Of a stretch of 64,000 nucleotides of DNA, positions 52,019 through 59,401 are shown piece after piece. The notes beneath the pieces are model-generated. The model was given only the letters and a program-made list of their open reading frames with translations. It made no database searches and was not told the DNA's origin. Numbering within the stretch: the stretch's first letter is position 1; every line of letters begins with the position of its first letter. This DNA comes from Nitrospira sp. (GTDB lineage Bacteria > Nitrospirota > Nitrospiria > Nitrospirales > Nitrospiraceae), in assembly GCA_030123625.1 (NCBI GenBank), contig CP126121.1:2458179-2522178 (forward strand), in the 5' to 3' direction. Both the position numbers and the translations under genes were made by a program.

Positions 52019-52771
52019 TCACGAGGTTTGAAGTTCTCGGAAACCCAACATTCGGCCGGCTGGTGCGGCGGTCCGATAATTCCTGACGCGAATCGTACGA
52101 CTCAGCTGAGGAAGGTCGAGCGCGGTTCCGACTTTCGGTGGATGTCCCACCCGCAGCAATTCGCCGGCCGACTCCATCAATACTTCCTTAGCTGTACCGT
52201 CGGAAAGTCCTTTGGCCATAAACACTTCAACCTCGTCCAGCCCGAACTTGCTGAGTCCTAGTGAGTAGGACCACACCCGGTCCGGTTGGGAGGTGTCGTC
52301 ATGGACGATCGACACGTGATCATCTAAAAGGAAACTTGCGAGCGTACGAGGCTGCCAATCCGAGGGATTGACGTACGCTTGGGTAATGACGTCATACGCC
52401 GTGCCTTGAGACAACAGAGTCAGACAACGAGCCAGGCGCGCTGCGAGTAGAACGGTATCGGGCATGTCGCGATGAGAGGCCATGGACGGTGCGACGGCAC
52501 CCATGAGGTCATGCTCCCAAGCCAACTGCTTCATGATGTCGGTAACATGGCTCTTCGGCAGCGGCATCACGACATGAGCCGACCAAGGACCATGCGTCGC
52601 CTGCCAGGATTCGGCCGAACTCTCTTCATGTCGGATGGCCAATGGAGCGCCATACTCACGCTCATACAGCAGTTTCAGCTCATCGCTGGAAGGGGCTGTG
52701 CCGCGATAGCCGATGAAATAAAGCGGGGGCCGCTTGGCGGAGGGCCTGGGCGATTTCTTGCGGATTCTCAT
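52019..52771 (-). CDS. Conserved protein, DUF4261-like C-terminus
   Basis: A 250-residue protein without signal. The N-terminal half has alternating strands and helices (LYFIGYRGTAPSSDELKLLY), and the C-terminus (LGLSKFGLDEVEVFMAKGLS) resembles the end of DUF4261 proteins. It has a very basic start (MRIRKKSPRPSAKRP). The ATG at 52771 lies at the edge of a heptamer array that separates it from bipA. Function unknown. Confidence 0.65.
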   Translation of the reverse strand: MRIRKKSPRPSAKRPPLYFIGYRGTAPSSDELKLLYEREYGAPLAIRHEESSAESWQATHGPWSAHVVMPLPKSHVTDIMKQLAWEHDLMGAVAPSMASHRDMPDTVLLAARLARCLTLLSQGTAYDVITQAYVNPSDWQPRTLASFLLDDHVSIVHDDTSQPDRVWSYSLGLSKFGLDEVEVFMAKGLSDGTAKEVLMESAGELLRVGHPPKVGTALDLPQLSRTIRVRNYRTAAPAGRMLGFRELQTS

Positions 52772-52776
52772 CTCAA

Positions 52777-52837
52777 ATCTCGTTCCTCGTGGAGTGTATC
52801 TCGCAAACAAACGACGCTTCACGCTTCACGAACGACA
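52777..52837. repeat. Heptamer array between bipA and the DUF4261-like gene
   Basis: Left arm 52777-52804: ATCTCGT, TCCTCGT, GGAGTGT, ATCTCGC. Right arm 52810-52837: AACGACG, CTTCACG, CTTCACG, AACGACA. The right arm is regular with CG every seven bases; the left is weaker. The array fills the gap between the gene start at 52771 and the bipA stop at 52840. Confidence 0.7.
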
Positions 52838-52839
52838 TT

Positions 52840-54696
52840 TCATTTCCCCGCCTTCCTGGCTTTGCGGCGGTCTTCTGGGTTCAGCAGCCGCTTCCGGAGT
52901 CGCAGGTTCTGCGGGGTCACCTCGACCAACTCATCGGCCCCGATGTATTCCAAAGCGAATTCCAGCGTCATTTCACGCGGAGGCGTGAGTACCAAGGCTT
53001 CATCTGAACCGGAGGCCCGCATGTTGGTGAGATGCTTCTCTTTGCACACATTCACATCGAGGTCCTCATCTCGGCTGTTCTGGCCCACGACCATCCCTCG
53101 GTAGACTTCGATGCCGGGCCCGATGAACATGGTCCCGCGTTCCTGGGTCATAAAGATGGCATAACCCGTACTGACACCGTCTTCGTAGGCGACAAGCGAG
53201 CCATGCGGGGCGACGATTAGGTCCCGCTCTTCCGCCGATTCGTAGGCCGAAAAGACATGGTGCAGAATGACGGTCCCACGGGTCTTCGCCAGGAGCATGT
53301 TCTTCAACCCCATAATCCCTCGGGTTGGAATGTGGTATTCCAAATGCATCTCGCTGGTGCCGACATCGGAGTGAATGAGGCGCATGTGCCGCATTTCGCC
53401 GCGACGTTTACCGACCTCTTCGATGACCGTGCCCTGATAGGTTTCCGGCACCTGAATAGTCAACTCCTCGTAGGGCTCCATGACGGCGCCGCCTTCACGG
53501 TGAAGAATGACTTCCGGTTGCGAAACTTGTAGCTCATACCCTTCCCGCCGCATCTGTTCGATCAACACCGCGAGATGGAGCTCGCCTCGGCCCGCCACGA
53601 GGAAGCGGTCGGCGCTGTCTGTCTCATTGACGCGAAGCGACACGTTGGTTTCCAATTCCTTGAACAGGCGCTCACGTAAATGGCGTGACGTCAGGAACTT
53701 GCCTTCTCGCCCGGCAAAGGGGCTGTTGTTCACTGAAAAGGTCATCTGAACGGTCGGCTCGTCGATCGAGACGCGCGGAAGAGCGACCGGACGCTCGGCA
53801 TCGGCGATGGTATCGCCGATACTCACCTCATCGAGCCCCGCCACTGCGACAATTTCCCCGGCTTCCGCCCGCTCCGTATCCGTTCGTTCGAGGCCGGAAT
53901 AGACCGCCAAGTCCGAGACCTTGCCTGTGGTCTGAGCCCCATTCTTACCGAGCACTACGACGCTTTGTCGCCGGGAGATCGATCCCGATTGGATCTTGCC
54001 GATACCCAGCTTGCCTTTGTAGGCATCCTGGGCCAGGGCCAATACCAGTATCTGAAGCGGAGCCTCGGCGTGAATGGCAGGGGCGGGAATTTTATCCAGA
54101 ACGACGTCGAGCAACGGCGCGATTTCAACGCCGGGTTTATTGACATCGAGTGTGGCGGTGCCCTTGATCGCCGAGGTGTAGACAATGGGGAAGTCGAGTT
54201 GTTCGTCGGTGGCTCCCAGATGGACGAAGAGATCGAACGTACGGTTGACGACATCGTCGATCACGGCGTCCGGTCGATCGATTTTATTAATCACCACGAT
54301 GGCCTTGTGACCCAGCGAAAGAGCCTTGCGCAACACGAAGGTCGTTTGCGGCATCGGGCCTTCCTTGGCGTCAATCAGCAGCAGTACGCCGTCCACCATT
54401 CTCAAGGTACGTTCCACTTCACCGCCGAAATCAGCATGACCTGGCGTATCGACAATATTGATCTTCACACTGTTGTAGATGACGCTCGCATTCTTGGCTC
54501 GGATCGTGATCCCGCGTTCTCGCTCCTGATCCATCGAATCCAAAATGCGTTCGCCCATGTCGTCGATCTTGCGATGGACATGGGTTTGGCGAAGCAGGGC
54601 ATCGACTAACGTCGTCTTGCCGTGGTCGACATGGGCGATGATGGCGATGTTGCGGATATCGCTTCGGCGGTCATGAGGGGCACGTATCATGGTCAT
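52840..54696 (-). CDS. typA: GTPase BipA/TypA
   Basis: A 618-residue translational GTPase of the BipA family. Motifs in order: G1 AHVDHGKTT, switch I RERGITI, G3 [12 protein letters not shown]4 NKIDRP, then EF-G-like domains III and V ([32 protein letters not shown] in parts) and the BipA C-terminal domain. It binds the ribosome and is needed at low temperature and other stresses. I take the start at 54696 (M-T-M-I-R-A-P); a predicted promoter and a terminator-like hairpin lie just upstream. It is convergent to nothing and divergent from the PBP1A gene. Confidence 0.93.
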
Positions 54697-54720
54697 AGTT
54701 GAGTTGTTCCCGTGAGCGGC

Positions 54721-54750
54721 AAAAAAAAGACGCCCCGCTATCGAGGCGTC
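54721..54750 (-). terminator. Terminator-like hairpin in the bipA leader
   Basis: On the minus strand GACGCC and GGCGTC form a 6-bp GC-rich stem with a 10-base loop, followed at once by eight U (54728-54721). This is a canonical intrinsic terminator, but it lies between the bipA promoter and start codon and begins about at the predicted transcript start. No upstream minus-strand gene needs it. It may be an attenuator or a 5' stabiliser. Confidence 0.65.
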
Positions 54751-54756
54751 GATAAA

Positions 54757-54785
54757 ATTATACATGAGCGTCGATCGTCTCACAA
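54757..54785 (-). promoter_or_regulatory. Predicted bipA promoter
   Basis: On the minus strand TTGTGA (54785-54780) and a perfect TATAAT (54762-54757) are 17 bases apart. Predicted transcript start about 54750. Confidence 0.7.
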
Positions 54786-54887
54786 GCGATCATTCGGGTG
54801 ACATTCGCGGTGGAAGCTTGAGTTTTGAGAAGACGCATTGTAAGGTTTTCCAGCTCGCCTATCGGATTTCCTCGGGAGAGAATTCTC

Positions 54888-57290
54888 ATGCCAGGCGATG
54901 AACGGTTCATCGAGATTCAGGAACGGCCACGCCGTCGCCTGCGCTCATGGCAGATCGCATTCATCAGTGCCGTGGCGGTCACCATCGTCGGAGCCACGAC
55001 GGCCGTGGGGGTCGTGTGGCATTTTGCGCAGGATCTTCCCTCTCTCGACCTGCTCCAAAACTACCAACCCAGTCTCGTCACCACCGTCTATTCGGATGAT
55101 CGTCAGCCCATCGGCCAATTCTTCATCGAACGCCGTATCTTGACGCCGCTTCCTGAAATTCCCAAAACGCTGACACAGGCCGTCATCGCGACGGAAGACG
55201 CGCGATTTTTCGAACACCCGGGGTTGGACTATATCGGGATGCTGCGCGCGGCTTGGACGAACATTCGGCACGGAGGGCGGAAGGTCGAAGGCGCCAGCAC
55301 GATCACACAACAATTGGCTCGTTCGCTCTTTCTCTCGTCCGAGCGGTCCTATGAGCGGAAGATTCGTGAGCTCATCTTGGCCTACAAGATGGAGGCTGTG
55401 TCGGGCAAAGAACAGATTCTCGAAACCTACCTGAACCAAATCTACTTCGGGCAGGGGGCCTACGGCGTGGGCTCAGCGGCTCATTCCTATTTCGGAAAAG
55501 ACGTCCGAGCGCTGACTCTGGCCGAATCCGCGTTTTTAGCCGGTCTGCCGAAGTCGCCCAGCCGGTTTTCTCCTTTCACCGCCTATGAATTGGCGAAGAA
55601 GCGCCAAGAGCATGTTCTCGCGCGAATGGAGGAGGTTGGGTTTATTACAGCAGCGGAACGGGACGCGGCCGCTCGCGAAAAATTGAATTTCCATCGGCCT
55701 GGAAGCGAACACCTTGCGCCATACTTCGTCGAATACGTCCGTCAACTGCTTGTGGCGAAGTACGGAGAGTCCATGGTGTACAAGGGCGGTCTCCAAATTT
55801 ACACGACCTTGAATTTGGAGATGCAAAAAGCCGCTGAGTCAGCGTTCTTGAACGGGGTTCGCGAGCTCGACAAGCGGGAAGGCTGGCGAGGGCCTCGGCG
55901 AACAGTCGATTTGGCGGCCGTTCAGCCCGTGGGCCTGGCCCAGGCGGATCAGCTGCTCAAACCCGGCTATCTCGGTGAAGGGGTCGTCTTAAGGGTGGCA
56001 AAGGATCATTATGTGGTCCAAGTCGGCGCATTTACCGCGAAGCTGGCGTTTGACGACATGGCATGGGCCAAGCGGATACTCAAAGGGCCGGATCCCGCGG
56101 TGGACTTCATCGTGAACCCGAATCTCAAATCACTGTTGAAACCTGGGGATGTCATCGAAATCGGCGTGAAGAAGCTCACCAAAGATGGAGTGCAACTCAC
56201 ACTGGAGCAGACGCCGATCGTCGAAGGAGGATTGATCGCGATCGATCCTAAAGGGGGTGCGATTCGCGCGATGGTGGGTGGATATGATTTCTCCCGCAGT
56301 GAATACAACCGTGCGGTGCAGGCTCACCGGCAACCGGGGTCTGCGTTCAAGCCGCTCATTTATGCGACCGCGATGAGTCAAGGGTTGAGCCCTGCCACAC
56401 AGATCCTCGATGCCCCGGTCGTCTATGAGCAGGAAGAGGACGATAAGATTTGGAAGCCGGAAAATTACGGCCGCAAGTTTCACGGCATGGTGAGTCTCCG
56501 GGATGCGCTGGCTCAGTCACATAATCTTGCGACGGTTCGATTGTTGGACAAGGTCGGTGTGAAAAACGTGATCGAGTTCTCGCGTACTGTCGGGGTCACG
56601 AGCCCGCTCCCTGCCGATCTGTCCTTGGGACTCGGCACATCTTCCGTAGGCTTGATGGAATTGACGTCGGTGTATGGCGTATTTTTGAATCAGGGAAGTC
56701 GAGTGGAACCCTTTGCGGTCAAATCGGTCAAAGATAACATGGGTAAGGTGCTGGAAGTGACCGAGTCCGAGCCTCATGAAGTCATCGCCAAAGAAACCGC
56801 CTATTTGATTGTCAACATGATGGAGGATGTCGTGCAGAGGGGAACCGGGCAAGCGGCGAAGGTGCTGGGGCGCCCGATTGCCGGGAAAACCGGTACGACG
56901 AACGACTACATCAATGCCTGGTTTATCGGTGGAACACCGAATCTGGTCGCCGGCGTCTATGTCGGCTTTGACGATCGCCGCTCCCTCGGAGAGAGCGAGA
57001 CGGGAGCCCGTTCAGCCTTACCGATTTGGACCGCGTTCATGAAAGAGGCGCTGAAGCAGCTTCCTGTCGTCCCGTTTGAGATTCCCGACGGGGTGACCTT
57101 TGTGAAAGTCGATGCCGCCACCGGACTTTTGGAATCAGAGCAAGAAGGAGAAGCGGAAAAAGGAACGGTTGAACTCTTTGCAAAGGGGAGTGAGCCTACT
57201 CAGAAAGCGCAGCGTCGACCGGATCCAACGGATTTTTATAAGCTCGATCAGATTCCCGAGGGACAGCCGGCTGGAGACGGAAACTTGTAG
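54888..57290 (+). CDS. mrcA: Penicillin-binding protein 1A-type transglycosylase/transpeptidase
   Basis: An 800-residue class A PBP. An N-terminal anchor (IAFISAVAVTIVGATTAVGVV) is followed by the GT51 domain (ATEDARFFEHPGLDYIG, GASTITQQLARSLFLS, LNQIYFGQGAYGV) and an OB-like insert. The transpeptidase has the nucleophile SAFK, then SHN and KTGTTND. It polymerises and cross-links peptidoglycan. The start at 54888 has GGGAGAG upstream; the frame extends 21 codons further without a better start. It diverges from bipA. Confidence 0.92.
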   Translation: MPGDERFIEIQERPRRRLRSWQIAFISAVAVTIVGATTAVGVVWHFAQDLPSLDLLQNYQPSLVTTVYSDDRQPIGQFFIERRILTPLPEIPKTLTQAVIATEDARFFEHPGLDYIGMLRAAWTNIRHGGRKVEGASTITQQLARSLFLSSERSYERKIRELILAYKMEAVSGKEQILETYLNQIYFGQGAYGVGSAAHSYFGKDVRALTLAESAFLAGLPKSPSRFSPFTAYELAKKRQEHVLARMEEVGFITAAERDAAAREKLNFHRPGSEHLAPYFVEYVRQLLVAKYGESMVYKGGLQIYTTLNLEMQKAAESAFLNGVRELDKREGWRGPRRTVDLAAVQPVGLAQADQLLKPGYLGEGVVLRVAKDHYVVQVGAFTAKLAFDDMAWAKRILKGPDPAVDFIVNPNLKSLLKPGDVIEIGVKKLTKDGVQLTLEQTPIVEGGLIAIDPKGGAIRAMVGGYDFSRSEYNRAVQAHRQPGSAFKPLIYATAMSQGLSPATQILDAPVVYEQEEDDKIWKPENYGRKFHGMVSLRDALAQSHNLATVRLLDKVGVKNVIEFSRTVGVTSPLPADLSLGLGTSSVGLMELTSVYGVFLNQGSRVEPFAVKSVKDNMGKVLEVTESEPHEVIAKETAYLIVNMMEDVVQRGTGQAAKVLGRPIAGKTGTTNDYINAWFIGGTPNLVAGVYVGFDDRRSLGESETGARSALPIWTAFMKEALKQLPVVPFEIPDGVTFVKVDAATGLLESEQEGEAEKGTVELFAKGSEPTQKAQRRPDPTDFYKLDQIPEGQPAGDGNL

Positions 57291-57515: not shown

Positions 57516-57585
57516 CCCCTCGTATCTCGTCGCTCGTGAAACGTGAAGCGCGATACGAAATACGCTTCACGAGATGCGCTTCACG
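57516..57585. repeat. Ten-unit heptamer array between hscA and iscX
   Basis: Ten consecutive heptamers, each ending in CG at exact seven-base steps (57521-22 through 57584-85): CCCCTCG, TATCTCG, TCGCTCG, TGAAACG, TGAAGCG, CGATACG, AAATACG, CTTCACG, AGATGCG, CTTCACG. TGAAGCG and CTTCACG units are partly inverted. The last unit includes the hscA stop codon. This is the most regular array in the window. Confidence 0.9.
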
Positions 57586-59401
57586 TTACTTCAGAAACTT
57601 TTTTCCCTCTCAGACCCTTTTTGAGGGAATCTTCCAGCATTACGACGTTCAAATGCTTGGCGGCCTGTTCGAGTTCCAGCATACGTGCCCGGATGGCACG
57701 GGGATCTGTTCCGTCCTTTGTGGTGGACAATTGCGACAATGCAGTGCGGATAGCATCGGCTTCCTCAGGTGCCACCAGATGTCCCGCTTCCGCCAATGAT
57801 TTATCGGTCGTCTTGATTAAGGCTTCGGCATCTAAGCGAGCTTCGATCAGCTTCCGTGCGTTGATATCATCCGCGGCAAACTTGAACGAGTCCTCGATCA
57901 TTTTCTCCACTTCGATGTCGGACAATCCGTAGGAAGGTTTGACCTCGATCGATTGACTTTGGCCCGTCCGCATGTCCGTCGCCGTGACATTCAAGATTCC
58001 GTTGGCATCGATCAAGAAGGTTACCTCAATGCGCGGTACGCCGGCCGGGAGAGGAGGAACCTTGAGGCGAAATCGTGCCAAGCTCCGGTTGTCTTTGACG
58101 AGTTCGCGCTCGCCTTGCAGGATATGAATGTCTACTCCGGTCTGACCGTCGACATAGGTCGTGAACATTTCCTTGGAGCTCGCCGGGATGGTCGTATTCC
58201 GGCGGATCAGACTGCTCATGACGCCGCCCATCGTTTCGATGCCGAGAGATAGGGGCGTCACATCGAGCAACAGCATATCTGTCGTCCCGCCGCCGAGAAT
58301 ATCGGCTTGAACAGCCGCCCCCAGTGCGACGACTTCATCCGGATTCAGGTGGCAATGCGGAGATTTCCCGAACAGCGCTTCCACGAGCTGCCGAACCAAC
58401 GGCATGCGAGTGGAGCCGCCCACCAAGACCACTTCATCAATGTCTTTCGGGTTGAGTCCGGCGTCCTTTAACGCCATACGACAAGGAACCAAAGTGCGTT
58501 CAATCACACTCCTCGCCAGCGATTCAAGCTGATCACGCGTCAGCTCTCTGGTAAAGCGTCCTTTGTTCTCCGGTAGCTCGACGGCGATCTCGGTCTTGAG
58601 ATCGTCCGAAAGGCGTATCTTTGCACGTTCAGCTTCCAGCCGGACGGCCTGTATGTGGTCGGGATAGCCGCTTAGGTCGATTCCTTCGCGCTCTCGGATT
58701 TCTCCTATAAAGAGATCAACCAACAAACGATCGACATCGTCTCCGCCAAGATGTGTATCTCCATGAGTCGCGAGCACTTCAAAGATACCGTCTTTCAATT
58801 TCAGTATCGATATATCGAACGTGCCGCCCCCGAAATCATACACGGCGATCGTGCCTTGCGTGTTTTTCTGAAGTCCGTAAGCCAGAGAGGCGGCGGTCGG
58901 CTCATTGATGATCCGCAAGACTTCCAACCCGGCAATGAGACCGGCATCTTTGGTGGCCTGTCGCTGGCTGTCATTGAAGTAAGCAGGAACGGTAATGACG
59001 GCCTTCGTGATGCTTTCGCTGAGATATGCCTCCGCGCGTAACCTCAATTCCTTGAGGATCATGGCGGAGATCTGCGGCGGCGAGTAACTCTTTTGGCCCA
59101 GTCGGATCCGAATGACGCCGCCGGTTTCAGTGAGGTGGTACGGAAAATAGGCGAGCTCGTTCTCGACATCGGCTAACCCCTTGCCCATGAAACGCTTCAC
59201 GGAATAGACGGTACGCTCGGGATTTCGTGTTAAATGCTCTTTCGCCGAATCTCCGACAATCAGTCCGTTGTCCGTCAAGGCCACGACCGACGGGACCATC
59301 GTCCGACCGTTGCGGTCCGGGACAATACAGGGCTGCCCGTCCTTCATGTACGCCACCAGCGAATTGGTTGTGCCGAGATCGATGCCGACTATACGTGCCA
59401 T
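57581..59401 (-). CDS. hscA: HscA, Hsp70-type Fe-S chaperone
   Basis: A 606-residue Hsp70 of the HscA type. The ATPase domain has GIDLGTTNSLVAY at the start, IINEPTAASLAYG and VLVGGSTRMP; the substrate domain contains TYVDGQTGVDIHILQGERE and FLIDANGILNVTATD. HscA pulls on the LPPVK loop of IscU to release the nascent cluster, and IscU here has that motif (98-102). It follows hscB, 22 bases downstream, in the isc operon. Confidence 0.95.
   Translation of the reverse strand: MARIVGIDLGTTNSLVAYMKDGQPCIVPDRNGRTMVPSVVALTDNGLIVGDSAKEHLTRNPERTVYSVKRFMGKGLADVENELAYFPYHLTETGGVIRIRLGQKSYSPPQISAMILKELRLRAEAYLSESITKAVITVPAYFNDSQRQATKDAGLIAGLEVLRIINEPTAASLAYGLQKNTQGTIAVYDFGGGTFDISILKLKDGIFEVLATHGDTHLGGDDVDRLLVDLFIGEIREREGIDLSGYPDHIQAVRLEAERAKIRLSDDLKTEIAVELPENKGRFTRELTRDQLESLARSVIERTLVPCRMALKDAGLNPKDIDEVVLVGGSTRMPLVRQLVEALFGKSPHCHLNPDEVVALGAAVQADILGGGTTDMLLLDVTPLSLGIETMGGVMSSLIRRNTTIPASSKEMFTTYVDGQTGVDIHILQGERELVKDNRSLARFRLKVPPLPAGVPRIEVTFLIDANGILNVTATDMRTGQSQSIEVKPSYGLSDIEVEKMIEDSFKFAADDINARKLIEARLDAEALIKTTDKSLAEAGHLVAPEEADAIRTALSQLSTTKDGTDPRAIRARMLELEQAAKHLNVVMLEDSLKKGLRGKKVSEVT

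Follow-up and report, generated by a model that had tools for sequence, protein, structure and literature searches.

Stem-loops located at the 5' end stabilise the ompA and papA mRNAs of Escherichia coli. The leader of bipA in Nitrospira shares with them a hairpin that lies at, or close to, the start of the mRNA, although a terminator-type U-tract is outside the definition of those stabilising elements. The closest kind of element to the bipA leader is the rimP-leader (Rfam RF01770), in which a lone conserved terminator hairpin followed by a U-tract likewise precedes a ribosome-maturation gene. Its description presents a sequence-conserved stem with no visible antiterminator, the proposed regulator being a protein that acts in termination or antitermination (Naville and Gautheret, 2010, PMC2965389). 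The two leaders differ in: (i) the stem motif, which is GGGc..gCCC in the rimP-leader and CGCC..GGCG in the bipA leader, thus leaving the latter outside RF01770; (ii) the position of the hairpin, since the Bacillus subtilis rimP leader is 180 nt long (PMC2965389) whereas the bipA hairpin begins at the predicted +1; and (iii) the gene behind the hairpin, which encodes a 30S factor in the case of rimP and a 50S factor in the case of bipA.

The greA leader also carries a terminator close to the promoter, with minority read-through to the gene: about one third of the transcripts pass the leader terminator (PMC6829880). The terminated RNA, GraL, has 37-59 nt, compared with the approximately 30 nt predicted for bipA. 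In addition, the stretch transcribed before the GraL hairpin (+1 to +18) matters for regulation, while in bipA this stretch would have at most about 5 nt; GraL termination is imprecise; and its gene and sequence are unrelated to the bipA leader (PMC6829880). In more general terms, the mapping of 3' ends in E. coli suggests extensive premature termination in 5' UTRs, and the portion of that text consulted contains no mention of bipA or typA (PMC7815308). A search of a limited literature collection gave no relevant work on bipA leader attenuation or on Nitrospira transcription starts.

The DNA analysed here (hereafter, the window) is a stretch of 64,000 nt from a Nitrospira sp. genome (contig CP126121.1). 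The bipA (typA) coding sequence is located on its minus strand (54696-52840; 618 aa), and its product matches the TypA/BipA model TIGR01394 with 859.6 bits against a cut-off of 757.3. The ATG (54696-54694) occupies a position that is conserved in relatives. Upstream of bipA there is a divergent gene of the PBP1A family (54888-57290, plus strand) and, hence, no directly adjoining same-strand gene that would require a terminator. Other features of the surroundings are a 267-aa open reading frame with no NCBIfam match, which follows bipA immediately and in the same orientation (52019-52822, minus), and an open reading frame of 606 aa, Hsp70/DnaK-like judging from the appearance of its sequence, which is convergent to the PBP1A gene (57581-59401, minus). 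The divergent PBP1A leader (54810-54887, plus strand) contains a conserved CTTGAGTTTT block, also present in relatives (e.g., L038:1369-1378) and, farther upstream, in loci where PBP1A may have moved away from bipA (e.g., L026, L029, L055).

Reading along the minus strand, the bipA promoter is composed of a -35 element, TTGTGA (54785-54780), whose CTTGT is kept in most relatives, and, after a spacer of 17 nt, a -10 element, TATAAT (54762-54757), which becomes TATACT or TATAGT in relatives. Following a gap of 6 nt, there is a stem-loop of 22 nt, GACGCCTCGATAGCGGGGCGTC (54750-54729), which can be written as GACGCCTCG-ATAG-CGGGGCGTC, and a T8 tract, U8 in the RNA, abuts the stem (54728-54721). 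The remaining 24 nt (54720-54697) include the ribosome-binding region (ACGGGAA...) and are too short for another promoter. Because the stem begins 6 nt past the -10 element, the expected +1 is the first base of the stem, that is, the 7th base after the -10, a position predicted from the usual spacing. From the location of the -10 and the U-tract, a terminated leader RNA of about 30 nt (54750-54721) is predicted. An earlier, sequence-only reading of this DNA had described the promoter, the GC-rich hairpin and the eight U before the bipA ATG, all of which was confirmed on the minus strand; likewise supported is its proposal that a hairpin resembling an intrinsic terminator coincides with the predicted start of transcription. 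The arrangement it gave is correct too, with measured distances of 6 nt from promoter to hairpin and 24 nt to the ATG (it had given about ten and 25, respectively), but the 6-bp stem it claimed has in fact 9 bp.

The promoter matches the consensus at 10 of 12 positions and is the best of four promoter-like sites in the 10 kb scanned, a number within chance (shuffle mean of 4.5); the conservation of the promoter is beyond chance, unlike the -35/-10 match taken alone. A regulon sharing this promoter was considered and rejected: GCTTGT-N18-20-TATAMT has three matches in the genome, and the reversed control has four and two on the two strands. Equally rejected was the possibility that the hairpin is part of a coding extension of bipA: in the window, the frame is open upstream through the hairpin, yet the leaders differ by insertions and deletions, and in many relatives a stop codon lies nearer (open frame of 623 aa).

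Regarding the strength of the hairpin, its 9-bp stem contains seven G-C pairs and closes a loop of 4 nt. When folded with one flanking base and the U8, its energy is -16.8 kcal/mol, and none of 200 shuffles was as stable. The temperature-dependent melting suggested by the sequence-only reading is not supported, and an RNA thermosensor, with a weak stem that masks the ribosome-binding site or start codon, was rejected: a GC-rich stem of 9 bp with about -15 to -17 kcal/mol is too stable, ends 32 nt before the ATG and leaves the start codon uncovered. The terminator score of the site is 44.4, and elsewhere in the window, both strands considered, only two scores exceed zero (17.3 and 4.5). In a sample of 464 kb (the window and 20 further pieces of 20 kb each, about 10% of the genome), the bipA site is the second strongest of 19 hits above zero, two of which exceed 40; first-order Markov controls yielded eight hits above zero and none above 20. 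It is also the only strong terminator of this sample with a promoter-like site directly before the stem, one weak terminator (score of 1.7) being likewise preceded by a poor promoter-like site. The sequence GGCGTCT7 occurs only once in the genome. The pattern TATAMT-N22-52-T7 returned five rows, two of them corresponding to the bipA leader, the only place where such a hairpin was seen when judged by eye. A repeated element was rejected, given that there is one site per genome. As a separate observation, strong intrinsic terminators are rare in this genome (six scoring above 20 per 464 kb, both strands), which may mean that most termination takes place via Rho or non-canonical signals.

In order to compare leaders, bipA loci were taken from 59 genomes of the genus, from 80 loci of named records (nearly all of them Nitrospira) and from the phylum; loci whose upstream sequence was too short were excluded, and each group of identical leaders was counted once (in one set of 80 rows, L046, L067, L096 and L105 were skipped and six repeats were removed). 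A sigma-70-like -10 element (TATAnT) is present in 84 of the 85 distinct leaders of the family, L067 being the only one that lacks both the -10 and the promoter-hairpin-U unit. In all 84 leaders with a -10, the hairpin lies 6-11 nt past it, which leaves a 5' overhang before the stem of 0-5 nt as counted from the predicted +1. The longest U-run has 8 nt in 53 leaders, 7 in 15, 9 in two and 6 or fewer in 14, so that 70 of 84 have at least 7. The U-tract directly behind the stem is kept and the leader sequence after it is not. A CGCC-N-GGCG core was found in 83 of 84 leaders, with a spacing of 9 in six, 10 in 74, 11 in two and 16 in one, where a different GGCG may be involved; in the form CGCC-N9-11-GGCG it is kept in 82 of 84. 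The leader without a core (L031) appears to be re-paired in another register. The core together with a U-run was recovered in 2 of 16,800 shuffled leaders, and the most distant member of the family (L134/L163, 79% protein identity) retains the core and a U7. The comparison of Nitrospira bipA leaders, which the sequence-only reading had put forward with a lack of conservation as the outcome that would speak against it, therefore shows a conserved hairpin.

A covariance model built from 71 leaders found 57 sites in 56 of the 59 Nitrospira genomes, essentially one per genome and at bipA; being trained on related leaders, the model recovers them partly by construction, and the informative result is that essentially nothing besides bipA leaders was found. 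By coordinates, 53 of these sites abut bipA, and two more precede bipA on reading (L198, L199). Another site (L197) is at a contig end, with the break at the T-tract and the start of bipA on another contig (L200), and the last, a second site matched by the model, likewise lies where a contig ends (G023:C133). The three genomes without a site correspond to a contig that begins inside bipA (G014), a genome in which nothing matched bipA (G015) and a leader that has the hairpin with a degraded U-tract or none (G058). One genome bin (G028) has two bipA leaders, an intact one (L198, G028:C170) and an altered one (L201, G028:C25), in which other sequence replaces everything upstream of the 3' arm of the hairpin; variation between strains or a join made during assembly could account for this.

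Beyond the family, no promoter-hairpin-U unit was seen by eye in seven bipA loci from other Nitrospirota (L135-L141) or in two further loci from within the order (L161, L162). In L161, a short CGCC-N5-GGCG may be present immediately upstream of the ATG, without a U-run. In a 401-bp stretch at E. coli K-12 bipA there are three weak terminator-like sites, none of which combines a stem close to the promoter with an adjoining U-run behind it. With regard to known RNA families, RF01770 gave no match in the whole genome at E-values up to 1, the model being of limited sensitivity (only 1 of 14 control genomes passes the cut-off). At E-values up to 5, Rfam gave six weak sub-threshold hits in the interval 54500-54900 of the window, RF01770 not among them. 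The best one (sau-6072, E 0.026) reached 22.8 bits against a gathering threshold of 50, and these hits were taken as chance hairpin-plus-U matches, not as family membership. No family reached its gathering threshold in five relatives.

The pairing of the stem is supported by covariation. Across 71 distinct rows, 88.6% of the cells in the nine stem pairs are paired, versus 42.9-57.3% with slid partners, and the covariation score is 0.256 versus 0.140 in shuffled alignments, none of 500 shuffles being as high; relatedness inflates such scores and these controls remove it only partly. Doubly changed cells amount to 40 in the true pairing and 27 in the best slid version. Five stem pairs show changes on both sides, a weaker measure that 28 of 500 shuffles also reach. 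The type of base pair varies in the outer and inner parts of the stem, while the four core pairs hardly vary: three never do so and one is broken in a single row. The loop sequence is not conserved among leaders.

Taken together, we consider, with a probability of roughly 0.6, that this promoter fused to an intrinsic terminator is a terminator-only attenuator that throttles bipA, and the unit probably limits the amount of BipA in Nitrospira. A GC-rich stem with its U-run is indeed located on the strand of the gene, between the promoter and the ATG, and the conserved position of the U-tract, directly behind the stem, favours termination. According to this attenuator reading, RNA polymerase would start at or just before the first stem base, transcribe the 22-nt hairpin and the U8, and pause on the latter; most complexes would then release the RNA of about 30 nt, and the remainder would read through to give the bipA mRNA. 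As the hairpin would be transcribed first, there would be no upstream RNA for an antiterminator, ligand sensing or translation. Hence, the fraction that reads through would depend on the polymerase and what acts on it (NusA, NusG, cold-shock-domain proteins, nucleotide supply) or, alternatively, on a protein that recognises the conserved CGCC/GGCG stem. Classical attenuators (riboswitch, T-box, leader peptide) depend on transcribed upstream RNA and, barring a longer upstream transcript, are excluded because only 0-5 nt precede the stem when counted from the predicted +1. A terminator so near the +1 may be less effective than its score says and, without a regulator, the unit would be a fixed throttle.

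NusA is able to raise intrinsic termination (PMC12691694), E. coli CspA, CspC and CspE (at metY-rpsO) and CspD (elsewhere) lower it (PMC9765468), and E. coli needs BipA for the maturation of its 50S subunit at low temperature (PMC8313970). Three matches to the cold-shock domain were found in this genome, and a cold-shock link of the bipA leader would be reasonable by analogy. A more specific version, which we regard as possible but rather doubtful, is a minimal factor-gated promoter-terminator, that is, a single hairpin from +1 on which a protein or a shift of the start site decides termination. The gating protein could be BipA itself, NusA or a cold-shock-domain protein; alternatively, the gate could be a small displacement of the start site into the 5' arm of the hairpin. 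The near-invariant CGCC/GGCG core, which exceeds what pairing needs, would then be a recognition mark.

Termination is not kept in every leader. With the bare hairpin scored in its best window, a choice on which the count of weak leaders depends, 55 of the 84 leaders count as strong, 13 as intermediate and 16 as weak, and the score is above zero in 63 and zero or lower in 21. Weak leaders arise in several separate changes on the bipA tree, and U-run length and stem energy weaken jointly (Spearman -0.65, uncorrected for kinship). In two leaders (L016, L043), the stem is kept and a proper U-run has been lost. These two, together with the weak leaders, are the main evidence against a pure terminator, and they lend some weight to a different explanation, unlikely on balance but the best of the rivals: a 5'-terminal stem-loop that protects the mRNA by hindering 5'-end-dependent decay, with the U8 as a spacer or as a site for S1 or cold-shock proteins, and termination as a minor event. 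This type of protection is established in E. coli; the hairpin lies within a few nucleotides of the predicted +1 in the 84 distinct leaders, persists in the 16 weak ones and is retained despite poor or lost U-tracts (L016, L043, L072, L123). Nevertheless, a U7-8 right behind a GC stem is unnecessary for protection, yet 70 leaders have it or a longer one, and the predicted overhang of 5 nt in 25 of 84 is above the ideal. The sequence-only reading had left a choice between a short attenuated RNA and 5' protection. Both are possible, the U8 favouring termination and the U-poor leaders that keep the hairpin favouring protection.

It is improbable that the inverted repeat CGCC-N10-GGCG acts at the DNA level as an operator for a dimeric regulator, over +1 to +22, with a secondary U-tract. 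Protein-binding palindromes and terminators can be confused or interconvert (PMC2965389), and the half-sites are almost invariant, 10 nt apart in 74 of 84 leaders. But the inner pairs between the half-sites covary (columns 26-33, with 23 doubly changed cells), the half-sites are 9 or 11 nt apart in eight leaders, the T8 would have no role, and a regulator would have a single site per genome.

Even less probable is that the hairpin terminates the transcript of an upstream gene, or stray transcription toward bipA, and lies beside the promoter by chance. PBP1A was found within about 1.5 kb in 72 of 116 loci with more than 400 nt upstream (a count that includes near-duplicates between the genus-genome and the named-record sets) and is divergent in all 72. 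Some relatives do have a same-strand gene upstream: according to a rough heuristic orientation, strong units comprise 46 divergent and 14 same-strand cases, and weak units three and 12, respectively. Nonetheless, units are weaker, not stronger, next to other neighbours (9 of 28 are strong, versus 46 of 53 next to PBP1A; three of the 84 leaders were too short), a trend that is confounded with ancestry and is opposite to that expected of an upstream gene's terminator. The promoter-hairpin-U unit persists where the upstream gene changes. Besides, as the hairpin sits downstream of the bipA promoter, 24 nt before the ATG with its U-tract, bipA's own transcript must cross it. That most units beside the divergent PBP1A are strong, with no upstream same-strand transcript, supports the attenuator. 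Finally, a trans-acting small RNA similar to GraL, which works both in cis and in trans (PMC6829880), is highly improbable, since the leader RNA would offer no unpaired seed besides an unconserved loop and the U-tail, and no Hfq match was found in the genome, an unremarkable absence for this family model because the same search was positive in only 5 of 14 control genomes.

A separate observation concerns the leaders of lepA (EF-4), in which a three-codon open reading frame, ATG-AGY-TAG, is found directly before an in-frame TTG in five of five cases (L229-L233). This TTG is likely the lepA start. The small open reading frame lies about 45 nt before the HIDHGK codons and shortly after a TTGACA/TATAAT-type promoter, and other genomes also present an in-frame TAG at such lepA matches.

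Should termination indeed take place, this family of nitrifiers would control a GTPase of ribosome assembly by means of a hairpin at +1 and without any sensing RNA. Such a leader would represent a clean natural test of (i) how read-through is determined by nothing but the state of the polymerase and the elongation factors; and (ii) how early an intrinsic terminator is able to act once the promoter has been left. A parallel to the rimP-leader would also emerge, with two ribosome-assembly factors behind lone terminators. Were the minimal factor-gated version true, an attenuator could hardly be smaller than the bipA leader of Nitrospira, and it would be linked to a 50S assembly factor.
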